Part shown: positions 6,401 to 47,831 of the stretch, one piece after another
Layout: each line of letters opens with the position of its first letter
Position numbering within the stretch: position 1 is the first letter of the stretch
Notes under the pieces: generated by a model
What the model was told of the DNA's origin: nothing
Databases searched by the model: none
Seen by the model: the letters and a program-made list of their open reading frames with translations, nothing else
Origin: Nymphaea colorata
Lineage: Eukaryota > Streptophyta > Magnoliopsida > Nymphaeales > Nymphaeaceae
Assembly: GCF_008831285.2 (NCBI RefSeq)
Contig: NC_045147.1
Coordinates: 5,062,334 to 5,126,333, forward strand
Direction of reading: 5' to 3'
DNA length: 64,000 nt
Made by a program: the position numbers and the translations under genes

Positions 6401-9400
6401 CATCCAATGGCTAAAGCAATTAGGGAAGATAGAATGGGATTTCATGAAAATACAGATGAAGTTTCAAGGACCTGAAGGAGAAAGGACTATCCAGGCTTCT
6501 AAAGTTGATTGATTGGAGGCAAAAAAAAGTGACGAAGTCGGCTAAGACTAGGGGAGGGTGAGAAGGCCTGCACTTGTTAACAATTGTGACTGCAGGGTTT
6601 AGCCAAGAAAAACCAAGCATAGTGAATATACCACCTAAATTCTCATAGCGCATCTTGAAAGAGCCTGGTTCAGCTCATGTCAAGCTGGGACCTTATCAGT
6701 ACAATTACTGCAGAAAGGTGAGAGAGAAAGATTGATTATAGAAATGCTGCAGGAAGGAATGATCCAGCCCAGTAGAGGCCCCATTATTCAAGAAAATGGA
6801 TGGGCACTAGAGATTTTTCATCGACTAGAGGGCCCTAAATTCAATTGCTGTCAAGAATAGGTATGCCATACCAATTGTTAAGGAGCAGTTGGATGAGCTC
6901 AAAGGAGCTGACATATTGCTCGAGCTTGACTTACGGGATAAGTACCACCAAGGTAAGGATGATCATGAGGATATTAAGAAGGCTGCCTTTCAAACACGAG
7001 GTCAATTTAGAGTCATGCCATTCAGGCTCGCAAATACCCCTACAACATTCCAAGCTCTGACAAATGAAGTTTTTACTCGCACCTACATATTCATTTATGT
7101 TTTTTTTTTTATGACACATCAATTCATAGTAGCAGCCGAGAACATTGTCAAGTTGAAGGAAGTACTAAAATTGTTGTGCAGCAATCAGTTGTATGCCAAC
7201 GCTTCAAGTTGCATGTTCATCAATCCACATGTCACTTATTTGGGTCACACTATATCTGGCCGAGGAATTCAGATGGAGGAAGACAAGGTTTTAAAGACTG
7301 GGAAATACCAAAGGGGATCAAGGGACTGGGAGATTTCGTGTGGCCCACTGGTTATTACAGGTGCCTTGGAAAAACTTCAGGGAAATAACTATGCCATTAA
7401 CAGCAATGTTTACGAAAGATAGCTGGAAATGAAAGAAAGACACTGTGGTCACATTTGAGAAATTATAGAAGGCCATCATGAGCACTCTAATACTGACTTG
7501 GCCAGATTTTAGTCGGCCAGTGACAGTTGATATTGATGAATCAAAAGTTGGAATAGGGGATGTTTTGAGCCAAGGTTACCACCCTATGGCTTTCTTCAGT
7601 AAGACAAAGGAGAGCTGATTTAAGGCCAAGTCCACCTATGATCATGAACTGATGGTCATGGTTCTTCTCCCATTTTTTTTCTACTTCCACCCCACCCCCC
7701 CACTCCTTCTCTCTCTCTCTCTCTTTATCTCTCTCATAGTAAGGAAGAGGGCCAATGAGATTAAAGACTAGTCACAAATGTCATTAATGGGTTTTAAATG
7801 GTGAGGTTTTCCTCTGGTATTTTTCAACAAAGCTGAAAATCTTGGGAAAGTTCAGCAATTTTTATTAAAAAGAAAAAATCCTAAAAAATAGAAATAAGCA
7901 AAATAAATGAAAAACTAACAATAAAACATAATAAGTGACTTGATAAAATGATAAAAATGATGTTTTGGTAATGAGATAAACAATTTAACTTATGTTTTAA
8001 ACTTTAAAGAAAAATAACCTAAAAATAATGACAAAAACGTAATAAAAACTAAAAAAATGCAAAAAATTCATTTTAGAACTTTTTCAAAAAAAGTTTAAAA
8101 ATACATGTTTTTTTCATTTTCATTCTTAACATTTTTATTGGGTCTTTTTTGAAGAAGACAGGTTTTTTGTGGCTATGGATTAAAGCAATCTCCATAAAAA
8201 AATTAAAAAACGTAGACAAATAAAACCGTCAAACTTGTAATGACTTACATAACAGATTATATATATCATATATGTGCCCTCGCTACAACCAGCCACCTGC
8301 AGCCATGTAAGATGGCAAGAGAACCAGGCACCATGGCCGAGATGGGAGTACTCTACTTGGCTACAATGATGTTTCCAGCCTTCACACCTTGAGGATTGTA
8401 AATAGCGGAAAGCAAAGCATAGTTATAAGTATAAATAAGTTGGTTGTGGACCAAAGAGGTCCCAAATATAGTTGACCCACCTGAGTTGTATTCCCATTTA
8501 AATATTTTGGGTCTATTGAAGCCTAAGGTTCTACATCAGAAGGGTATGTGAGAAAGGTTGTCATACCCAAGCCCCTGATACACTATAGGTACATCAGGAT
8601 AGATTTCCGATCAGAACCAATCCACAAGCCTTAAACTCTCTTTTCTAAAGTTTTTTTTGGGTAAAAAAAAAAGTCAACAGCTCTTCCCTTGGAAAGAGGG
8701 TTCAAAGCATTGTCATTGTAGAAATAATAGACGCGCAAGAACGGAAAATCGAACACAGGTGTAACGTGGAAAACCCTCAACTAGAGGGAAAAAACCACGG
8801 GTGAGGAGGTCTGGTGCCCACTAGCCGCCAGACTCTCTCTCTCTTTGAAAATTCATTAACACTTAAGATTAGGGTTTACAATGGTATAAGTATGCCCAAA
8901 CCAGGACATACTGGATCGGGTCCAGACCCGGACCCATACATCAAGATCCGTCAACACTCCCCCTCAAGTTGGGCATACCTATCAAACATGCCCAACTTGG
9001 ATACATTTCTCTCGAATGAAGTTAAAGATAGGGCTTTCGTCAAAACATCAGCTGTTTGGTCTTCAGATCTCATGTAAGGAAGTATAAGTTCTTTAGCATC
9101 AATTCTCTCTCGAATGAAATGCATGTCAATCTCAACATGCTTTGTTCTGTCATGAAGCACAGGGTTGTTGGCCAAGTTGATTGTCGACTTGTTATCGCAA
9201 TACATCTTCATTGGTTCTTCAACCTTTATACCAATATCAGTCAACAATACTTTTAGCCACAAAAGCTCTGAAACTCCCATAGTCACTGCTCTGTATTCTG
9301 CTTCAGCACTGGAACGAGAACAAACATCTTGTCTTTTACTTCTCCACACTATGAGATTCCCTCCCAAATAAATACAATAGCCAGAGGTGGACCTCCTAGT

Positions 9401-12400
9401 GTCAATACAGCCTGCCCAGTCTGCATCTGAATAACCTTCAATCCCAAGAGTGCCTTGCTTGACATACAAGAGACCTTTGCCAGGATTTCTCTTCAAGTAG
9501 CACAAGATCCTGTCAACAGCCTTCAAGTGGGCATCCGTGGGAGCATGCATGAACTGACTCATCACATTCACAGCAAAGGAAATATTAGGTCTAGTGAGAG
9601 TAAGATAAATCAACTTCCCTACAAGACATTGATATCTTCTTTTGGCCTCTTCACAGAGAGGCTCCCCATCTCTAAGACTTAGCTTATGGCCAGCATCTAG
9701 AGGAGTAGAAGCTGGTCTACACCCCAATTTCCCGGTCTCCTTTAACAAATCTAGAGTGTACTTCCGTTGATTTAGCACGAGGCTAGTCCTAGACCTAGCA
9801 ATTTCAATGCCAAGGAAATATTTCAACTTACCAAGGTCCTTGAGATCAAACTCGATCGCCAACAGTTTCTTTAACTTAATTAGTTCATCTTCATCGTCAC
9901 CAGTGACAATCATATCATCAACATATACCAACAAAATAGTAACCTTTTGCTCATTTCTCTTCACAAAGAGTGTATGATCTCCATTCCCTTGATGGTATCC
10001 ACATTGTCTCATGACAAGTCTAAGTCGTTCAAACCATGCTCGAGGAGATTGCTTGAGCCCATATAAAGCTTTCCTTAGCTTGCAACATTTTCCAGGTTCC
10101 TCATATCCTGGAGGCATACACATATATACTTCCTCTTCAAGGTCTCCATTGAGAAATGCATTCTTGACATCAAGTTGGTACATCTTCCACTCCTTCATCA
10201 CAGTTAAGGAGATAATGACTCTGACAGTCTTCATCTTCGCAACAGGAGCAAAGGTCTCCAAATAATCAATCACATATTTCTGACTAAACCCATTGGCCAC
10301 AAGACGAGCTTTGTATCTTTCAACACTTCCATCTGGTTTGTACTTGATGGTGTAGACCCACTTAGATCCAACCAAGTGAGCCGCCTCAGGAATCTTTATA
10401 ATTTCCCATGTCATGTTTCTTCTCAGGGCTTCCATCTCTTCTTCCATTGCATAAGTCCACTTGGGATCACTTTGAGCCTCAGCAACATTCCTGGGAATCA
10501 TAGCCAAAGAAAGAGAAGATACAAAACATTTGTAGTCCTTGCTCAGTCTAGAATATGAAACAAAGTTACCAATAGGATGTTGAGTACATGACCTGACACC
10601 CTTTCGCAGGGCAATGGGAAGCTCTTCACTTGCAAAACCAGTCTGAATCTCTTCTTCAACAGGTTGCTTCTGAGCACGACTTGGGTCATCCAGGGAAGGA
10701 CTAACTAGATTGGGAGTAGAATTCTCACCACTTGTCATCTCATCAGTACAAACTCTTTGCCTAGAGTAAACTTGCCCAAACAGACGATTGCATTCCTCTC
10801 CTGCCCCAGTAGAACACTCTCCACTTTTTTCTTGTTCAAGCACCTCAATAGAAGGACCAACGGATTCACGCCTGTAGTCCAAAAAATCTGTAAACAGAAT
10901 TTCCTGACTCGAAGAATACTCTTCGTTTGACATAGAATTCTCCCCCTGAAGAGGATTCTCACCAAAATAGGAAGCATGTTCAAGGCAAGTGACATCTTTG
11001 GTAACATAGGCACGACCAGTGGAAGGGTCCCGACACTTATACCCTTTTTGAGTGGGAGAATAACCTAGAAATACACCCTTAATAGACCTTGGATCAAGCT
11101 TTTTAATGTGAGGACTATGATTGTGAATAAAGCAAACACAGCCAAAGACTCTTGGTGGAAGAGAGAAAGGTTCACGACTCCCCGGTAACATAGAGTGAGG
11201 CGTCTGCCCATTTAACACACGACTAGGCAAACGGTTTATAAGATACGCACTGGTCAACACAGCATCCCCCCAATATCTATTTGGAACATGACGTTGAAAA
11301 AGAAGAGCTCGAGTCATATTCAATAACTGACGATTCTTTCGTTCAGCAACTCCATTTTGAGGAGGAGTATAACTACATGAAGTCTCATGAACAATTCCCT
11401 TTTTTCGAAAGAAGCTATCAACAGACTGACACATGTACTCACGAGCATTGTCAGATCGAAAGGTCTTAACAGATGCTCCATATTGAGTTTCCACATAAGC
11501 AATGAAAGTCTCTATAACAGTAGGAACTTCACTACGATCTTTCAACAAGTAGACAATAGTGTTACAAGAACAATCATCTATAAAGGTGATAAAATATTGA
11601 AAATCATGATAGGAAGGAATCCCTGAAGGCCCCCACACATCAGAATGAATCAGGGCAAATACCTCATTAGAACGATGGCTAGACAAAGGGTATGAAGCCC
11701 TAACATGTTTGGCCAGGTGACAGACATCACAGGACACCATAGTCATATCTAACCTGAAACATAAATCAAGAAACAACTGTCTAAGAAGCCCAAAAGGCAG
11801 GTGTCCAAGGCGCTCATGCCAACGTAGAATCAATTGAAGGGAGTCCTCTCTGTTCTTCGTTGCTTGACTGACTGCCGTCATGAGAGCCTGAGCAGTACGC
11901 ATAGGTAAACGATATAGCCCGTCAGAAATCAGACCAATCTCAATCCTCTTCCCTGTCACCAAGTCCTGCATAACATAGTGTCCCTGTCCCCAAGATCAGG
12001 CACTTTACATTGCCCAGAAATGGGAAAACCGAGTGTTCCTCTTTTTAGCTGGCTTAAATGATGAGTTTGAAGGTGTTCGGAGCCAGATTCTGAATTCTGA
12101 AGAGGTGTCCAGTATTGAAGATGTATACTCGGTTGTTGAAGCAGAAGAACAGAGAAGGCTGGTCACCAATGAAAGCAAGAGGGATCTTGGTCTCTCTCAT
12201 GAGAGATCAGCCCTTGTGAGCCGTGGACCTGGAGGCTTGGCTAGACCCCCTCGCCGATGCACACACTGCAAGAAGATGGGTCACACCGTCGATTACTGTT
12301 GGGATCTCTATCCAGACAAGAAAGGAAATAGAGGGAGGTCTTCTAGTGGGAAAACACCTGGGCCTGAGGCGCCCAAATCTAGTAGGGAAAAACTTTCTAT

Positions 12401-15400
12401 TTCGGTTGATCAGCTTCGTGAACTAAGGGCTTATTTGGGCAGGATCGATGTCAATAAGATTGAGACCTCAGAGGAAACTACAGCTAATCATGCTCTTGCA
12501 GTTATTGGCAATAAAGGTAACTCTTCTGTTGGCACTGTCCCCAAGATCAGGCACTTTACATTGCCCAGAAATGGGAAAACCGAGTGTTCCTCTTTTTAGC
12601 TGGCTTAAATGATGAGTTTGAAGGTGTTCGGAGCCAGATTCTGAATTCTGGAGAGGTGTCCAGTATTGAAGATGTATATTCGGTTGTTGAAGCAGAAGAA
12701 CAGAGAAGGCTGGTCACCAATGAAAGCAAGAGGGATCTTGGTCTCTCTCATGAGAGATCAGCCCTTGTGAGCCGTGGACCTGGAGGCTTGGCCAGACCCC
12801 CTCGTCGATGCACACATTGCAAGAAGATGGGTCACATCGTCGATTATTGTTGGGATCTCTATCCAGACAAGAAAGGAAATAGAGGGAGGTCTTCTAGTGG
12901 GAAAACACCTGGGCCTGAGGCGCCCAAATCTAGTGGGGAAAAACTTTCTATTTCGGCTGATCAGCTTCGTGAACTAAGGGCTTATTTGGGCAGGATCGAT
13001 GTCAACAAGATTGAGACCTCAGAGGAAACTACAGCTAATCATGCTCTTGCAGTTATTGGCAATAAAGGTAACTCTTCTGTGGGGGAATGGATTGTCGATA
13101 GTGGTGCTACTCATCACATGACAGGTAATCCAAAATTGTTTCATGAGTATAAGTTGTCCTCGGGAAGGGAACGTGTTTCTCTTGCAGATGGTTCCTCTAC
13201 CTGTGTGGCAGGCGAAGGCACTTTGTCCTTGTTAGACAAATTTCATGTGCAGGGCGCATTACATGTCCCCCAGTTTCCTTTAAATCTCTTGTCAGTCAGT
13301 AGACTTACTAAAGAATTGAATTGTGAACTTATTTTCTCTGCCGATCGCTGTGTTTTGCAGGACTTGGTGACAGGGAAGAGGATTGGGATTGGTTTAGCTT
13401 CTGATGGATTATATCGTCTTCCCATACGTGTGGCTACTGCTCTGTTGACAGCGATCCGCAAGACAGATAAGAGAAGAGAAGATTGTCTTCAGTCCTTTAT
13501 GTACTGGCATGAACGTTTTGGGCATTTACCTTTTGGGATTTTGAAACATTTGTTTCCAGACCTGTGTTCCTCCCTTGATTTGTCTTCCATTTCTTGTGAT
13601 GTTTGTCAGTTTGCCAAACATGTGAGGGCTTCGTACCCTCTTTCTACTAGTTGTGTTAATGAAGCTTTTTCCCTGATTCACTCTGATGTATGGGGACCTT
13701 CGGGAATTCATACCCGTCAAAGTTTTCAATATTTTATCACTTTCATTGATGATTTCTCTCGTGCTACATTTGTGTACTTGTTAAAAGACCGCAGTGAGGT
13801 TCCTCGTATCATCGAGACATTCATTCTTCTTGTGCATACCCAATATGGTGCGAATGTTAAAACTTTCCGGTCCGATAATGCCCGTGAATACATGTGTCAG
13901 CCTGTTGAGGAGTTTCTCAGACAAAAGGGGATTGTTCATGAGACATCTTGTAGTTACACCCCCCCTCAAAATGGGGTAGCTGAAAGGAAAAATCGTCAAC
14001 TTCTTAATGTCACCAGGGCTCTTTTGTTTCAAAGAAATCTTCCTAAACACTATTGTGGTGATGCAGTTCTTACTAGTGCCTATCTTATTAACCGCATGCC
14101 CAGTCGTGTTTTGAATGGTAGGACTCCCCACTCGTTACTTCCTGGCAGTCGTCCACCATTCCTACTTCCTCCTCGTGTTTTTGGTTGTGTATGTTTTATC
14201 CATGATCACAGTCCAAATGTCAAGAAACTTGATCCTAGGTCTATCAAAGGTGTCTTTGTTGGATACTCTCCTACGCAAAAAGGATACAAATGTATTGATC
14301 CTATTACTGGTCGAGTTTATGTTACGAGGGATGTTACCTTCTTAGAACATGCCTCTTACTTTGGTGAGAATCCTCTTCAGGGGGAGCAGTCTGTGGGCAG
14401 GGAAGAGTATTCTCAGAGACATGAACTTCAGTTTACAGATTTTTTGGACTACAAGAAAGCAGAATCGCTTACTACTGTTGATGTGCCTGAGAAGGAGGAA
14501 AGGTGTGACACTAGCATTGAGAAGGAAGGCCCTCGGTTGTTTGGACAGTTCTACTCTAGACGAGGTACTCGGACAGAGATGATGACTTGTGATGCTAGAT
14601 CTACTTCCAATCCCAATGCCACTCCTTCCCTGGATGAACCAAGTCCTACCGTGGAGACTGTGGAGACTCATGATGAGGTTGAAAAGAAGAATGAAGATCT
14701 TCCCATTGCCCTGAGAAAGGGTGTCAGGTCATGTACTCAACACCCCATTGGTAATTTTGTATCTTATTCCAGACTTGGAAAAGATTACAAGTGTTTTTTT
14801 TCTACTCTTTCTTTGGCTGTGATCCCCAGGACTGTTGCTGAAGCTCAAAGTGACTCCAAGTGGGCTGATGCAATGAAAGAAGAAATAGATGCCCTGAGAA
14901 GAAATATGACATGGGAAGTGGTGAAGATTCCTGAAGCCGCTCACTTAGTTGGATCCAAATGGGTGTATACCATCAAGTACAAACCAGATGGGAGCGTTGA
15001 AGTTATAAAGCTCGACTTGTGGCCAAGGGATTTAGCCAAAAATATGGAATTGATTACTTGGAAACTTTTGCTCCTGTTGCGAAAATGAAGACAGTAAGGG
15101 TGGTTATATCCCTAGCTGTGATGAAGGAGTGGAAGATGTATCAACTAGATGTTAAGAATGCATTCCTCAATGGTGACCTCGAAGAAGAAGTATATATGCA
15201 TATGCCTCCAGAATATGAAGAACTAGGAAAATGTTGTAAGCTGAAAAAGGCCTTATATGGCCTTAAGCAATCGCCCAGAGCGTGGTTCGAACGACTGAGA
15301 AGAGTGATGATACATCATGGATACAAACAAGGAAATGGAGATCACACTCTGTTTGTGAAGAAGAATGAGAGCAGGGTTACTCTCCTGCTGGTCTACGTAG

Positions 15401-18400
15401 ATGACATGATTGTCACAAGAGATGATGAGGAGGAGATTATCAAGCTAAAAGGATTACTGGCTACAGAATTCGATCTCAAAGATCTTGGCAAGCTAAGGTA
15501 TTTTCTTGGTATGGAGGTTGCTAGGTCTAGTACTGGTCTTATACTAAACCAAAGGAAATACACATTAAATCTGCTGAAAGAAACTGGTAAATTGGGATGT
15601 AGACCTACTCCTACCCCATTTGACATTGGGCACAAGTTGAGTCATGGAGAGCCTCTCTGTGAAGAAGACAAGGGAAGATATCAACATCTGGTTGGGAAGT
15701 TGATTTATCTTACCCTCACGAGACCTGATATCACCTTTGCGGTGAATGTTTTGAGTCAATTCATGCATGCACCAACCGATGCACATCTGAAGGTTGTGGA
15801 CAGAGTACTATGCTACCTGAAGAAAAATCCTGGCAAGGGACTCCTGTATGTGAAACAAGAGACTGTGGAAATCGAGGGCTATTCTGATGCGGATTGGGCA
15901 GGTTGTGGTGATACCAGACGATCTACTACAGGGTACTGTGTCTACTTGGGAGGAAACCTTGTTGTATGGAGAAGCAAGAGACAGGATGTTTGCTCTAGAT
16001 CTAGTGCAGAGGCAGAATATAGGGCAGTTGCTATGGGAGTGTCAGAATTACTATGGTTGAAGATACTGCTGACTGACATTGGAATAGAGATTGAAGGACC
16101 TATGAAAATGTATTGTGATAACAAGTCTGCAATCAACTTAGCCAACAATCCTGTTCTTCACGACAGAACAAAGCATGTTGAAATTGATTGTCACTTCATT
16201 CGGGAAAGAATTGATGCGAAAGAGTTGATCTTACCTTACATGAAGTCTGAAGACCAAACTATTGATGTTCTGACGAAAGCTCTTCCTTCAGCTTCATTTG
16301 AGAGGAATGTATCCAAGTTGGGCATGTTTGATATGTATGCCCAACTTGAGGGGGAGTGTTGATAGATCGTATGTTTCGGGTCCGGATCCATACCCGACCC
16401 GCCTTGTAGCCCGTGTTGGGCACTACTTAAGTCATGTAACCCTAATCCTTATGTGTTAATGATAATCTAAGGAGAGAGAGAGTCTGGCGGCTAGTGGGCA
16501 CCAACTCCTCCTCATTCGTGGTTTTTTCTCCCTCGTGTTGAGGGTTTTCCACGTTACATCGTGATCGTTGTTCCTCTTCCTCTCCTTGTTCGTATTTCTA
16601 CACATAGCAATCAGCAGAAAAGATAAGTTCGCAATTCAACTCTTTCGTAATCTTGCTAACCGACAAGAGGTTCAAGGGAAGATGGGGAACATGTAGAGCA
16701 TTGTGGACAAAGAACTTGTTCAAAAGTGGAAGACTCTCTTTCCCAGCCACAGAGATAGAGGAACCATCAGCAAGAGAAACACGTTCCTTTCCTGACGAAA
16801 GCTTATACCCATGAAAGACTTTAGGATCGCCGGTCATGTGGTGAGTAGCACCACTGTCGATGATCCACTCTCCCATACAGGAATCCGCCATCACGTTGAT
16901 AGAACACCCAAATTTCTTCTGCAGTGACAAAGGGCAGCCTCGGCGAAGCAGACAGATACACTGGCGGCACTGACTGGCACAGCAATGCTGGACAGACAGT
17001 AACAAGTCGTCTGGCAGCAAGAAGCAGCGACAGCAGGGCGTCTACAGTGACTCTCGGAGCACTCCAGCAGAGACGATAGAGCAGAAAGCGTCGGGTGACG
17101 ATAAGGGGGGCGTGCAAGCAGGCTGAGGGCGACGAGGTAGAAGGCTGACAGCCGGCGTCGGGCGAGCAATAGAGAGCTCGGCGTCGGGCGACACTGAAGG
17201 AGACAGACGATGGAGACCCCTCAGGCGACCGCAAGAAGGCAGAGGGACGCAGGGAGTCGGGCGACGGAAGATCACGGTGGATATAGTCGGGCGACCAATC
17301 AACACTGACAACTCTGGATAGAAGGGCGACGCTGGGTATAGTGGATCCCGAACAAACAAAATCGAGCAATGGACCAGGCGTAGCCACGTCGTCTCAGTGA
17401 GCAGCAACTTGGACGACGTTGGAGAAGATCAGTCGCGCTGGAAGGGAAAAAAAAAACGGCAACGGCGCTGGAGCAGAATGAAGACACGCCAAACGGAAGC
17501 AGGAACCACAGGCGTCGTCAGGCAATGAAGATTCTGAGCAGCGGAGGTGTTGGCTGGAAGTTCACGGCAACAAGCAGGGCAGAAACAGAGAGCCGCCTGA
17601 ACAGAGAGACGCCGGAACTCCAGACGGTGTCCAGTACGTCGCCGGAACTCCAACGGCGTTGAGTACGTCGCTGGAAGAAACGCCGGAACTCCAACGGTGT
17701 CGAGCGATGATCAGTCACGCCAGAACTTCACGGCGGTAGCGGGCGGCGGCGGCGATAGCGGACGGCGACGGGCGGCGGCGGCAGGAGCAGTGGCGGCAGC
17801 AGCAACACGTGGTCTAGGGTTGGAACTTCACAACCCTAAAAAAATTTCCAAGCTCGCTGGCTCTGATACCATGTAGAAATAATAGACGCGCAAGAACGGA
17901 AGATCGAACACAGGTGTAACGTGGAAAACCCTCAACTAGAGGGAAAAAACCACGGGTGAGGAGGTCTGGTGCCCACTAGCTGCCAGACTCTCTCTCTCTC
18001 TTTGAAACTTCATTAACACTTAAGATTAGGGTTTACAATGGTATAAGTATGCCCAAACCAAGACATACTGGATCGGATCCAGACCCAGACCCATACATCA
18101 AGATCCGTCAACAGTCATAAATACCGTTCTCAGGTATTTTAATGGCAAAATGTTTTTCAGATAATTTTCGACAACGATGTTTTTCTCAAAACAAAAATCT
18201 CGGGAAAAACTCAAAAACTTTAAAAATGAAAGAAAATGAAAAAGTAGGTAAACATGAAGTAAATCAGAAATTAACAATAAAACATAAACAAAACTAGATA
18301 AAAGTGATAAAAAAATGTTGTAAACTTTTAACGATGATAAAAATGAGAAAGCATAATTTATGTAAAGTTCAAATTTGAATCCATGATGATATTAACGTTT

Positions 18401-18713
18401 AAAAAAAGAAAAAAATAGGGAAAAATGCAAAAAAAATGTGATAATACATTTTTCCTTTTTTCCAAAATATCACGATTTTTCACTTTTGTTCTTTTTCTCG
18501 TTAGTCTCACGCTACTTTTTAAAATATTGCAATATTTGTAACACTGATTAGAGAGAAAATGATTGAGAGCCCTCCCTCCTTATGGGGAGGGATGATCTTC
18601 AAATTGTGTGTGTGAGGAAGAGAGAGAGAGAGAGAGAGAGGAAAAGAAAGAGTTGACTGAAAGTTGAACAGAAAGTTAAAACCATCTCTCATTGCGAGGG
18701 AAAGAAGGTTTTC

Positions 18714-18749
<36 letters not shown>

Positions 18750-21700
18750 TGATGGCTCCAGCACCGCCAACACATAGACTAGCAACTTCACCTAACTACC
18801 TAATTAGTCAATTGGCCATGAACCATGTTCCAGCCGACTAGATAATCATGGACCAGTCAGCTGGTCATAGACTAGGTTGACTAATCAGCCAACTAGTCAC
18901 TAGGTTGATATCAAAGGATGTATATGAAGCGCTTTTGCTTTTTCTTTGTGTTGCATTCAGCACAAGCTTCACTCCCTAACATAATAACTCTGTGCAACTG
19001 ACAGTTCAAGTTGCTTTCAATCTTAGTGTGGTGAATAACAACAAAAGACCAAGTAAAAAGCAAGATACTGCAAGTATAAATACAGGTTTGGAGGAAACAA
19101 ACCTGGTTTTGACGTGAAAATTCATCATCTTCATCAACATCACCTTCTACCTTTCTAGGGATGGCATTGTTCCCTGTGTTTATAGGCAATGGCCTTGGAA
19201 GAAGCTTTAACCCTTCCCCAAACTGTGGCTGCCAACATAGTGATAACATGCTTATAGTTTGAAATTTGATATGGATAATAAGCCAACCCGTTACAATAGA
19301 ATGCCAGGCTAATAAAAAAAAGGCAGGAAGAACATGGAGAAATCACTCGCCAAAGACAAAAGGTAGAAGACATATAATCAACAGTACAAGCATTTTGTCA
19401 GTTTCACAATTCTCACTGTGGTTGGAATTTAAACAAGTCTTAGCTTGTCTAATACTCTCTAGCCATGCTTGAGACTAACACCTATGTCTATGTTAAGCAA
19501 CACAGTTTAGAATCATGGTCACTTCAATTTTCTAATACAGAACCAATTTATACCCTTGCCTTGCCCCTCCCTGTATCTAGAAAGGGAAAATATGTTCAGG
19601 GAATAGGTGCACTACCTAGAGGGGCATGAGTTCTTCTATATCACACATTCCCACTACGTAAAACATTTCCATTCCCAAGAATGCTGAAGAGCTCTGAAGA
19701 TTACACAATGGAAAATGAAGAGACAAATTGATGTCAAACAAAGTGTATAGATCAATACAGGTTTATGTTATCATGTTCAAAGTACAAAACAAATTGGTTA
19801 GATCAAATGTAAGAAGCAAGGCCAGTTGCTACCAGATATTCAAACTTATGATGTAACCTACCAAAAAAGCTTGCATATGCAGCTAAGCTGAATTCAACAG
19901 AATGGTATGCTTATTTGCAATTTACATGATGTTTGTTGCACTAATTAGGTATGAATAATAATTTCTACACAAGACTTTACATGTCATTCCCATATGAATT
20001 TCTACAAAAATAAAAATAGATGTTGATAGAAATCAAAAAAGGTTATGTATGATTTCAAGCAGGGATATAGAGTATGGTTTGAGAGGTTCAACATGGTCAA
20101 CTTTGGATTTGGTTTTTCATATGCATTTTTATCTATATACTCTACACTACAGAGCTCATATCCTAGGGATACGAGGCAGTGGTCAAAGAAAATGACAATG
20201 ATGAAATTAAGAGGTCAAAATTTACCCAAGCCTCTAAAATTTACCTAAATAAGACCTATGGTATTAGACTATTGGCACATTGAAGTTCTTAGGCACCTAA
20301 GGGATAGTATAGCCTCCCAAAGGAATCATGATTTTGGTCCATTGAAGGAAACAAGTATAAACAAATGTAAGCTACTGAGTAAATATTCTTATAAGCTGAA
20401 ATAACAAGCTCCAAGCACAAATACGCAAGAAATTGGTGGTTAACTTATCTTACAACGACCATGGTCATAAATACCAGCGATATTTTCAGAATATCCAAAT
20501 AATATTGCCAAAAAACATAAAAAGAATTTAATGTGATATTTCCAAACATAGTCACAGAAAATCCGTCTTTTCGAAAACGACCTGCTAAAAATGCTAAAGT
20601 AACGAAAACAAAAAAATCTGCCTTTTTCCTTTTTTTTGAAAAAAAATCCAAATTGAATTTCACGTTTTTATCATTTTTCCTCATTATTTTTATGTTATTT
20701 TTGCTTTAAATTTTAAAACTTTAAGTTAAATTATTTATTTTCATTTTTATTATTACTAAAACATCATTTTATCAAGTTATTTTTTATATTTTCTTGTTAG
20801 TTTTGTGTTTATTTTACTTTTCCTTAATTTTTAAGACTTTTTCTTTTTCTAAAAAATTGTCAAGATTTTCCTAAGATTTTCAGCTTTGTCGAAAAATACC
20901 CAAGAAAATCCTCATCGTTTAAAATCTATTAATGTTTTTTTTACTATGTTTCCAAAATATCACTGATTTCAATTTTTCACATAACAATGCATTATTGTAA
21001 GATCTTTTAAGATATTATCAATCATCTCTCCTTCACCATCTCAATTGGTCATATTTGAATGAATTACATATTCAATTGTTTTGTTGGCATATTCAAATGG
21101 GAGAAGAAGAGTCAGAAGACTCATTTATTTATTGAAATGGGTCCGTGGCCACTCTAGGGTTCTCCCAGTGACCAAGATACAAGGGGCTGGTGTGGGCCAC
21201 TCATCAAAAATTCCATGTGAAGAATTCAAAATTACATTATGATGCCTTAAAAATTACATGGGTGCCATATCAGACCTCAGCTAGTGACTCGAGTACCCCT
21301 CAGCCAAAAAAATCCTAGCTCCACCACTGGTTTCTCCTGATCACTTGTGAATTAGATTTCACTTTTTGTATTAGTAAACAAACTCATAATTTCATATTTT
21401 TCCGATGATTTTGTGTGTAATTTTACTATTTTGTCTCCTAATCACTTGTGAATTAGATTTCACTTTTTGTATTAGTAAACAAACTCATAATTTCATATTT
21501 TTCCTATGATTTTGTGTGTAATTTTACTATTTTGAATTCCCAAGATTTCTCTGACAGATTGAATTTTCTAGTTAATACCAAGAAAACCTCACAAATAAAA
21601 AACTAAGATATTTGTTACTATGACAGTAACTAGGAGTCTAGGACATATGTCTATCCTATACAAGTTGTAGAAAGATATATAACCTCACCTGCTAATTATT

Positions 21701-24700
21701 AGATGCAAGTATATGGAGAACCAACACATCTAAAAGGAGATTTAGCCAAGGGTTCATCACATGCAAATCATGGACCATTCAAATTTGCAACATATTCCAA
21801 CGTAGACTAGACAAAGTGCAATACGACAAGAAATCTATTATCTCCAGCATTTGCACATGAATTGAGGATAATATTATATGTTATGTCCAACTTAAAAGGC
21901 CAAATATAGAGGAATGACACTTTATGTGCGTGAAGGCCTATGCCTAGAGACATGCTGAGTTGGGACTTCTTGGAGCTGAACCAATGACATTACCATTTAC
22001 ATTATCAACAGTCCAATGCATTGAGCACACCAAACACATTGACATCTCTTGTTACTTTATTTTTGAAAAGGCTAAGAAAAAAAAAATCACGTTGGTATAT
22101 ATGCAGGTCCATTTGGACATGTGATTTGCCTAGTTAGAAGAATGGCCACAAATATCGTCCTTGACTTTTATTCTCCAGTATTTTTTGGCAATTTAAAAAA
22201 AAAAATCAGGAAAATATCAGCAAATTTTTTAAAAATGAAAAAAATCTTAAAAATTAGGTAAAAATAAAACAAATGAGAAACTAATAAGAAGATATTAAAA
22301 AAATAGATAAAATGATAAAAGGAATGTCTTAATGATGATAAGAATGATACTAAATAATTAATTTAAGTTTAAAGGTGAATCCATGATGTCACTAACCTTA
22401 AAAATGAGAAAAATGAAAATACCAGAAAAAAAAAGGAAAAAACATGATAAATGTATTTTTCACAATTGTTTTTTCAGGTTCTTTTTGTTCTTATCATTTT
22501 CTCATTAATATCGTGATATTTTCAAAAATATCATGATATTTTTTACCATGGCTAGAAGCATAAGTTCAAAGCCTCCAAATCAATAAATCATAGTGGTACC
22601 TTAATGCCCAAAATGTGCTTCCCTTGCTACAGAGCCAGCAACGGGAAGACCTTCCAAGTGAGCAATAAACAGGACAAAAAAAGTAAAACTAAATATGCAT
22701 CTCTTAATTCAACCAGCATTTAGGAAAATAAGGGACTTCTCGCATCATCAAATAAATAAATAAGCAAATGAAGTACTACCTATGCACTCTAAAGTCAAAT
22801 AGCTAATGTACTAAGTATAGTTGGTCACAATAGCCATGGTCATAGTAGGTTGGACAATCCATGTCATTCATCTGAAGTTCTGAACTTAAATGGGAGCAAA
22901 TACAAGCTTTACGAGTTTTTTTTTTTCACAATGCACAAATAAATATGACAAGTTATAAGTTCAAAAATAAGGCCCGCAGAAAATATTGTTATCAAGGAAT
23001 GAGCTAATAAACTAGTAGAGCTCATATTGCTTGACAATAGTTTGGGTTGCTCATGAAACCTACTCAGATTTATAAAGGATCTTAATCAATAATTTATATT
23101 ACACCAAGAATATGAAATATCTTTTATTCCTTGAAACATGTGGTAGAATGCGTAGTGAGAGGCAGAGTGGATATCATTTCACAGAAAATGTCATGAAAAG
23201 TGATGGAATGTAAAGGAACTATTCTGACAATCTGTTTTATTCCTTGAGCATGAGCTAAAGATGAGTAGTAAACCCATATATATCATTCCACAAAACCATC
23301 TATGACAATGACATACATGTTAAGAGGTTGTTTTCTCAGCAATGTATCAGCTGGTCTAACAGAACTTTTGAACAAACCTGAATTTCTTGAGGCATATCAT
23401 TCCGAACCCATGAACGACAAAGTGCATAAAGAGATGATGGGGCACCATCAAGCAACCTGACCTACAAAAAATATGTGAGTTCAAATGATTAATAATATCC
23501 AACATCTTCATGAATACCATAAAATCTTATGGACGAGGACTTATGTGCTTTACAAGACATATCTCAGAAGACCAAAACTAAATTAAATATGTAAAACTGA
23601 TCCAATTGCAGAAATTGGAAATGATTAATAATTTTATTACTTTTCTATCATTTATGACCACTGTAACAGCATTCTCGCCATTCTTCTCCCTGAAAGAACA
23701 TCAAATCTAATCACTAAATGAAGAAAGAACGTACAATTAAGAAAAAATAACATGAGAATTTAAAATACCTCATATCTTTATAGTTATTCAAATCGGAGGG
23801 AGAAGGAACATCTGAAAATGGAGTAACCTGATATAAGCAAGTTGCGTTGGATCAGGATCCTAAAATGGAAATTTAAATTGTAAGGAAGAAATAAAATGCT
23901 GCAAAAGGGAAAAACCAGGACGTTCAAAAGTAGTTTAGAAGTTCACAGCAATGCTCTTCATAATCATTTGTGAAGGTGAGCAGACGGAAACAATTGAAGG
24001 CCTTGGAAGTAAATGAAAAATGACAGCGGTAAACAACGCTGATGGAGATGCATATAACGGCCATGATGCAGAATTTTTTTTTTTACAGGCCATAAGCTTT
24101 CCAGCAAAAGTTCACTAAGAAAACTGCATAAAGTAGATCTAGAAACATGACTTTTGATTGGAGTGGCAAACAGTCTCAGCAATGCTCTCAGGTACTTTAA
24201 TATGACTCGTGACATGATACTCTGATCAATTATAACTCAAGGTCCACAGCTATTTAGGGTGCTGCAAGAGGAATATGTTATTGACAATGCATAAGCATCC
24301 AGGTGTCTTGGAAGACATCAAGTTAAAAAAATTAGTCAGAAGCCTACAGAGCACCTGAATTAGACTTTGTGCTTGGCGTCTAATTCCACATTAAAAGGTA
24401 ATTGAACTAATAAACTTAATTTTCAGGATCAGCCTCCATTTTCACGCTAAATAAGAGAGAACTGGAGTTAATGAACCTCCCGTTGACAACGCACATTGCA
24501 TGTCGCTTTACAAGTGAACCTCTATACGTGAAGCCCAAATTCTGAATGTCCCAGAAACCACGATAATCTGATAAGTCTACGCAGACTCTAGGGTATCCAT
24601 TTTTACTTCATCTCAACACTCCAATAAGCCCACTATGACAATCCTAATAGATATCGCATAAATTTACTGGGTGAAGGACGTCGATTGTCAGAACTATGTT

Positions 24701-42351: not shown

Positions 42352-42863
42352 TGTTGCTCTAACTCCTGTCGTGGAGGAGCTTGTGGGAACGTGTGTGCGT
42401 GCATCATTCTAGAATGTGCGTGGGTTCCAACATTTGTGGGTAGTTAAAGTGAAGAAAATCATAAAAGAAAAAAAAAAGTGAAGTGAAGGGGTTGTGGGAA
42501 AGCATGATGAGCAGTTACTATTCTTGATGATCAAGTTTTGCCTTTTTTTGTTTTTTCTATATATAATTGTTTTAGTGTAGTTGAGAATAACGCCCAAAAA
42601 GAAGAAAGGGAATTTTTTTTTTTGCCTCCACCGAGTGACTCCCTTTTCTCTCTCGCGCGCTCTCTCTCTCCCTTGCCGTGTATTCTCCGCAGCTTGCATT
42701 TTCATCTTGGTGTGCTGCCACCGTTTTTATTCCCTCACTTGACGCATCTTACACCAGTGGCAGCCATTGAAGCCATAGCAGGCTACACGGTTGCAACCTC
42801 TCCTCCTCATTTTGCCTTATCAAAACGAGGCAATTGAGTGCGAATCAAGGGAGTCTGCCAACA
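42352..42863 (+). repeat. 5' LTR of Copia 3
   Basis: 512 bp. It contains a TATA-like CTATATATAATTG at about 42557 followed by a T/CT-rich leader, the likely promoter of the element. Confidence 0.9.
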
Positions 42864-43935: not shown

Positions 43936-43963
43936 TAGAATGGTAGGATCGGCAGGATGCCAT

Positions 43964-44188
43964 CCTGCTAAATGAGGAGCAGGTATGGCCGGAACTGCAC
44001 GAGACCAAGCACTATAAGGAAACTACCGATGATGTCGTCCTGCTAAATGAGGAGCAGCTATGACAGGAACTGCACGAGACCGAGCACTGCAAGGAAACTA
44101 TCAATGTTGTCGTCCTGCTAAATGAGGAGCAGGTATGGCCAGAACTGCACGAGACCGAGCATTGCAAGGAAACTACCGATATCTGGTA
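43964..44188 (+). repeat. 75-bp tandem repeat, three copies, in Copia 3 gag-protease spacer
   Basis: CCTGCTAAATGAGGAGCAG begins at 43964, 44039 and 44114. The period is exactly 75 bp (25 codons), so the repeat keeps frame. It lies between the zinc knuckle and the protease. Confidence 0.92.
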
Positions 44189-47322: not shown

Positions 47323-47831
47323 TGTTGCTCTAATTCCTGTCGTGGAGGAGCTCATGGGAACATGTGTGCATGCGTCGTTCTAGAATGTGTGTCAGTTCCA
47401 ATGCTCATGGGTAGTTAAAGTGAAGAAAATCATGGAAGAAAAAAAACTGAAGTGAAGGGAATCGTGGGAAAGCAAGATCAGTAGTTGCTATTCTTGAGGA
47501 TCAAGTTTTGCTTTTTTTGTTTTTTTCTATATATAGTTGTTTTCGTGTCGTTGAGAATAGCGCCCAAAAAGAAGAAAGGGAATTTTTTTTTTGCCTCCAC
47601 TGAGTGACTCCCTTTTCTCTCTCGCTCTCTCTATCTCTCCCTATCGTGTACTCTCTGTACCTTGTGTTTTCATCTTGGTGTGCTGCCACCGTTTTTATTC
47701 CCTCACTTGACGCATCTGACACCAGTAGTAGCCATTGAAGCTGTAGCAGGCTACATGGTTGCAGCCTCTCCTCCTCATTTTGCCTTATCAAAATGAGGCG
47801 ATTGAGTGTGAATCAAGGGAGTCTGCCAACA
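47323..47831 (+). repeat. 3' LTR of Copia 3
   Basis: 509 bp matching 42352-42863 with more differences than the outer Copia LTR pair shows, mostly transitions, implying an older insertion. Confidence 0.9.

Follow-up and report, generated by a model that had tools for sequence, protein, structure and literature searches.

Here we describe a locus of Nymphaea colorata in which two related Copia retrotransposons of different families are nested: one has inserted in reverse into the pol region of the other, which sits in intron 5 of a LIN37-like gene. The locus lies in NCBI RefSeq assembly GCF_008831285.2, contig NC_045147.1, positions 5,062,334 to 5,126,333 of the forward strand; this whole 64,000-nt stretch is called the window, and all positions without a contig name are its own. 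The inverted repeat formed by their pol regions arose as a by-product of the nesting. We consider it probable that the locus is mainly silenced intronic heterochromatin tolerated by LIN37, any small interfering RNAs (siRNAs) most likely being local and redundant. The parts of the two elements, including their long terminal repeats (LTRs) and target-site duplications (TSDs), are as follows.

8712 to 8716 and 18114 to 18118, no strand: TSD of the outer Copia, GTCAT (sequence comparison)
8717 to 8956, minus strand: outer Copia 3' LTR, TG...CA (self-BLAST)
8951 to 11971, minus strand: outer Copia pol open reading frame (ORF), 1006 aa, arm 1 (ORF list; Pfam)
11974 to 11978 and 16603 to 16607, no strand: TSD of the inner Copia, CATAG (site present once in the homologous inner sequence)
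11979 to 16602, plus strand: inner Copia insert, 4,624 bp, TG start and CA end, without a 5' LTR (self-BLAST; ends)
11979 to 12529, plus strand: 3'-half gag unit, tandem copy 1, starting at the insert edge (self-BLAST)
12530 to 13079, plus strand: 3'-half gag unit, tandem copy 2 (self-BLAST)
13348 to 16362, plus strand: inner Copia pol, arm 2, over ORFs 12584-15088 and 15019-16362 (Pfam; alignment)
16357 to 16602, plus strand: inner Copia 3' LTR, 246 bp (genome search with query 16359-16602; the flank comparison sets the start at 16357)
16608 to 16875, minus strand: protease part of the outer Copia (Pol_BBD), on the 5' side of the insert (Pfam, 59 bits; self-BLAST)
16876 to 17871, minus strand: outer GC-rich leader, in the place expected for gag (GC 0.58)
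17872 to 18113, minus strand: outer Copia 5' LTR (self-BLAST)

Both insertions run from TG to CA and are flanked by separate 5-bp TSDs (GTCAT for the outer, CATAG for the inner element), and the outer sequence resumes exactly past the insertion point when the homologous inner sequence is used as a guide. Both elements carry the Copia domain set of Pol_BBD, gag_pre-integrs, rve, SH3 and RVT_2, with RVT_2 after the integrase: in the outer ORF Pfam scored RVT_2 at 229 bits and also found rve, SH3_retrovirus and gag_pre-integrs; over the two inner ORFs taken together it scored RVT_2 at 188 bits, again with rve, SH3 and gag_pre-integrs. The outer Copia is bounded by two LTRs, which self-BLAST paired at 96.3% (8717-8959 versus 17872-18116) and which differ by 6 substitutions in 240 positions (Kimura two-parameter distance, K2P, 0.0256). 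After its 5' LTR, on its sense strand, is a motif that we take to be a tRNA-iMet-like primer site. The inner element has a 3' LTR only and opens in the middle of gag; we class it as a defective, incomplete Copia copy.

The two pol arms (11978..8951, minus, and 13348..16362, plus) are collinear and inverted, with a spacer of 1,369 nt (11979-13347) between them. Self-BLAST of the window returned a single large inverted match, 8743-11978 versus 16574-13348, with 76.1% identity over 3,260 columns (E=0), and a global alignment of the reverse complement of 8717-11978 with 13348-16602 gave 75.7% across the 3,246 columns free of gaps; another 25 columns contain gaps. The homology extends into the LTRs and into a protease segment (13080-13353 versus 16602-16875, 75.9% by self-BLAST). 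A sequence-only reading of the window had already placed two homologous Copia pols here, facing opposite ways about 1.4 kb apart, and its coordinates and geometry agree with self-BLAST, the global alignment and Pfam. Its identity of about 85%, estimated by eye, holds locally in the reverse transcriptase core but not for the whole arms. Binned by 200 columns, identity is lowest, at 66%, in the final, shortened bin, which lies in the LTR; the other bins run from 69% to 86%. The eyeballed value is local: the two bins over about 10581-10181 stand at 83% and 86%, and on these bins 85% along the entire arms was rejected. The arms are homologous and inverted, but they belong to two diverged Copia families and are not copies of one.

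Over 997 of the 1,006 codons of the pol arms, synonymous divergence (dS) is 1.36 and nonsynonymous divergence (dN) 0.14 (omega, dN/dS, 0.10); the divergence at codon positions 1, 2 and 3 is 0.19, 0.10 and 0.43, and the outer and inner LTRs are separated by a K2P distance of 0.37-0.39. These values indicate that two long-separated Copia lineages, both under selection, met by nesting, and therefore that the arms never formed a near-perfect palindrome at this place. The arms are collinear with few gaps, as local duplication and inversion of a single element with later decay would also leave them. We give that origin almost no credence: outer and inner elements each have a separate TSD, dS is near saturation at an omega of 0.10, the LTRs are of different families, and the inner family has its own copies in the genome (gag 92-97% identical over up to 671 bp, 15 copies compared). 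A duplicated palindrome was rejected on the TSDs, dS and omega. The outer LTR divergence (0.0256, 6 changes) exceeds the divergence between the inner gag units (0.0187, 10 changes), an order that fits an older outer element, but the changes are too few to tell.

We searched the genome for both kinds of LTR. With the inner LTR (query 16359-16602), 40 of 1,476 candidates were scored, the window's own included, and at least 39 LTRs of the inner family with 96% identity or more lie outside the window. The outer LTR gave 41 matches from 1,502 candidates, 40 of them scored, and at least 38 outer-type LTRs at 90% or more lie outside the window. Nine inner-family LTR pairs, each on one strand and 4.9-5.2 kb apart, were taken from the 40 scored matches, and their interiors were partly read; compared by eye, the 5 bp on either side are identical for 7 pairs and differ at one base for the other 2. 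One of these nine other pairs with compared flanks, C12:2402184-2407298 (G000, L007), is an inner-family copy nested in the opposite direction in an outer-like Copia: its left flank (L039) is 78.5% identical to the outer pol, and its right flank (L024) matches at 83.5% and 88.8%. Inverted nesting thus recurs in the genome. The LTR L002 (C1:5361323-5361566) is identical to the inner 3' LTR of the window; at that place another LTR copy follows the 3' end of pol with almost nothing between, which makes it a derivative by internal deletion.

The left end of the inner insert is unusual in its two tandem gag units. Counted from 12535, the units differ at 10 of 545 aligned positions (divergence 0.0187), all of them by transitions; the first five bases, excluded from this count, hold 2 more differences. 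When polarised with 14-15 family copies per site, 9 of the 10 are C-to-T or G-to-A changes, a bias in the direction of methylcytosine decay. These nine are split four to five between the units, which therefore seem to have aged together; for three of the nine, the changed state is also present in one to four other family copies. A bias toward CHG sites (H, any base but G) had a P value of 0.007 under the assumed direction, but polarising turned one change into T-to-C and left 5 of 9 in CHG (hand count), so the CHG evidence is weak.

All 31 other gag stretches read continue across the start of the unit and 16 of 19 across its far end, all 17 other copies with the zinc-knuckle part have a single gag unit and none a tandem one, and a 201-bp query over the tandem junction found a full-length match only in the window (best 40 of 493 candidates). 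Family copies have a near-repeat at the end of the gag unit and upstream of its start (upstream, 5 of the family copies read carry the 11-mer AACTCTTCTGT exactly, and others carry one-base variants of it). A switch at this near-repeat, together with the loss of about 64 nt (hand count), could account for the tandem junction. We also considered that both units start at one nucleotide because a broken template RNA ended reverse transcription there on two occasions; the near-repeats weaken this reading. The left edge itself may be that of an aberrant integrated cDNA, or may reflect a later loss that spared just the first three LTR bases; in the former case the inner copy may record integration of a 5'-LTR-less cDNA with a TSD. 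The Ty1 sub-genomic transcript that starts inside GAG bears a resemblance to the inner left end, no more. The tandem LTR-retrotransposon insertions of PMC11899658 are likewise rearranged elements between a single 5-bp TSD, but they retain an LTR at each end and duplicate entire internal regions, whereas the inner Copia lacks one LTR and repeats half of gag. A literature search for one-LTR insertions and tandem gag units found nothing matching, which is not proof of absence.

The outer leader (16876..17871) has no self-BLAST match to the inner gag, and its match to gag-bearing relatives is confined to its LTR-side end. Pfam found no gag in its three frames, which is weak evidence since Pfam misses the inner gag as well. 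One relative, L063 (C12:1061700-1063779), is about 95% identical to the outer element over the compared parts of pol and protease and, like it, has no match to the inner gag, while other elements with similar LTRs (L062, L064, L065 and L066) do match it at 66-73%. This suggests that the outer element and L063 belong to a gag-less, non-autonomous Copia subfamily.

The host gene was modelled from sequence alone, on the minus strand, as follows.

3441 to 25449, minus strand: LIN37-like gene, 7 coding exons (splice sites, phase; PF15306 match)
25449-24889, 23859-23828, 23689-23641, 23461-23378, 19228-19103, 4154-4075 and 3549-3441, minus strand: LIN37 exons (GT/AG borders, consistent phase)
19102 to 4155, minus strand: LIN37 intron 5, 14,948 nt, containing both Copia elements (gene model)

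The last exon coordinate, 3441, is one base short of the end of the stop codon. The spliced product of 346 aa matched PF15306 at 33.2 bits, above the gathering cut-off of 27; the unspliced raw frames gave a Pfam E value of 0.12 only. On this seven-exon model, intron 5 would cross both pols, as the sequence-only reading had proposed, with the outer Copia in the sense orientation of LIN37 and the inner insert antisense. Intron 5 also contains, at 6790-7663, plus-strand fragments of RVT_1 (28.4 bits, just below the cut-off of 29.6) and RNase H (41.8 bits), which are of a different retroelement type from the Copia pair. Inverted copies of about 400 bp (7782-8177 versus 20547-20934, 73%) flank the pair, and AT-rich pieces at 18189-18436 and 22195-22431 are partly similar to them. 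Intron 4 has a 101-bp head-to-tail duplication, 98% identical, at 21333-21534.

We next estimated how well an RNA across both arms could fold back. On the LIN37 strand, 75.7% of the aligned arm positions would form Watson-Crick and 7.8% G-U pairs (83.5% paired), leaving 16.5% mismatched; there are 10 Watson-Crick runs of at least 21 nt, the longest of 32. RNAfold of the native sequence 16358..8951 gave -3912.6 kcal/mol, with 2,496 of the 2,902 predicted pairs arm-to-arm, all within 30 nt of register and covering 82% of the outer-arm bases; 24 arm-arm stacks reach 20 bp or more. With the insert flipped, the energy was -2205.9 kcal/mol and 188 of 2,385 pairs were arm-to-arm, and three block-shuffled inserts gave -2149.9 to -2165.0 kcal/mol. 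Within this naked-RNA model the fold-back capacity is large. The intron hairpin with arms of about 3 kb that had been proposed can thus form in silico, and the arms are long and paired enough there for a fold-back RNA of the Mu killer type. Too low an arm identity had been named as grounds for giving up the siRNA idea; the alignment, at 75.7%, supplies no such grounds. In tobacco, transgenic hairpins carrying a substitution at one nucleotide in four gave RNA interference (RNAi) in 33 of 33 lines, strong in 10, and G:U hairpins were diced in plants (PMC9263138), so an arm identity of 76% does not refute the idea. Those transgenes resemble the locus in being imperfect long hairpins, but they are synthetic and transgenic, of 200-450 bp, with designed changes.

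In the reading that we prefer, the locus would be mainly ordinary silenced heterochromatin in an intron that LIN37 tolerates. A crossing transcript, either LIN37 pre-mRNA or outer-element RNA from its own 5' LTR, could fold into an imperfect hairpin of about 3 kb, and plant Dicers could cut it; any siRNAs would most likely be local and redundant with the RNA polymerase IV (Pol IV) pathway rather than selected for silencing in trans. The inner copy is without a 5' LTR and therefore should have no LTR promoter in front. Several points weigh against this reading. Silenced heterochromatin at the locus is itself presumed, the minimum free energy of a naked 7.4-kb RNA disregards splicing, proteins and co-transcriptional folding, and the near-gapless predicted pairing, with its 24 long stacks, keeps an active siRNA source a live possibility. 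Such a source, with LIN37 read-through or outer 5' LTR RNA diced and siRNAs hitting both Copia families in trans after the Mu killer proposal, strikes us as unlikely. The pairing, the Watson-Crick runs and the fold argue for it, and the LTR copies counted above show that targets exist. Mismatched hairpin transgenes still yield RNAi and escape self-methylation (PMC9263138), and maize genic hairpins are mostly intronic and linked with small RNAs, though as short local structures (PMC10760457). An antisense EVD nested in EVD, found in one of two silenced rdr6-EVD Arabidopsis lines, was put forward as a possible silencing trigger, but that study did not include an siRNA test of its locus, and the LTR siRNAs were mainly of 24 nt, unlike usual hairpin products (PMC11624286). 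For Mu killer, transcripts reading through from the neighbouring gene were reported to be sense and to take no part in silencing (PMC3440606). Further, on the LIN37 strand just the inner arm is antisense, and it is 24% different from the sense outer arm, so well-matched antisense siRNAs would reach the inner family only. Introns are normally spliced and then degraded quickly, which also counts against an active hairpin. A host intron feeding Copia silencing, as the sequence-only reading had it, is weakened in that transcription from the outer 5' LTR might yield this hairpin with no part played by LIN37, and in that inverted nesting is not unique to this locus. We hold it quite improbable that LIN37 harbours a two-family silencing hub, one imperfect hairpin, borne by read-through of LIN37 or by RNA from the outer LTR, whose arms would yield siRNAs against different Copia families, the 24% arm divergence sparing the locus the self-methylation that shuts perfect hairpins.

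A main effect on LIN37 itself is doubtful but deserves some weight. The sense outer LTRs would give early poly(A) sites, restrained by heterochromatin of the H3K9me2 (dimethylated histone H3 lysine 9) type and its EDM2/IBM2/EDM3-like readers. The outer Copia is in sense within a 15-kb intron, and the gag units have decayed as methylated DNA does, although the CHG bias is weak after polarising (5 of the 9 C-to-T type changes). The precedent is COPIA-R7 in intron 1 of RPP7, a Copia in a host intron whose 5' LTR is able to end transcripts and does so once EDM2 is lost (PMC7529245); its sense orientation follows from RPP7 transcripts ending there. The gene model gives LIN37 a long intron and a transposon orientation such as an EDM2-type gene would have. 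COPIA-R7 and EDM2 differ from a hairpin locus in acting through poly(A)-site control via H3K9me2 (PMC7529245).

An antisense Copia nested in Copia as a candidate silencing trigger has already been published for Arabidopsis EVD (ATCOPIA93), where a hairpin or convergent double-stranded RNA was proposed to start silencing (PMC11624286). That locus joins two new copies of the same element; the LIN37 locus joins two older families, 76% identical, in a gene intron. Mu killer, the model invoked by the sequence-only reading, is similar in that inverted transposon sequence adjoins a gene and a kilobase hairpin was proposed as the siRNA source, but that source is disputed there, with a minor hairpin share allowed (PMC3440606). 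Mu killer consists of part of one transposon, mudrA, duplicated in inverted orientation, and its silencing phenotype is proven, whereas the LIN37 locus consists of nested diverged relatives and is known from sequence. The LIN37 locus provides a case, now described, of an antisense Copia nested in a sense Copia within a gene intron. If siRNAs arise from it, it offers a natural test of whether retrotransposons that are diverged and nested in antisense can be a lasting source of silencing, as has been suggested for the one EVD locus and, with an inverted duplication, for Mu killer; if none arise, it is one more nested transposon pair.

Elsewhere in the window, direct repeats of about 510 bp (42352-42863 versus 47323-47831, 88% identical, 5 kb apart) are probably the LTRs of another element, and a 75-bp tandem repeat in 3 copies lies between them at 43956-44180.

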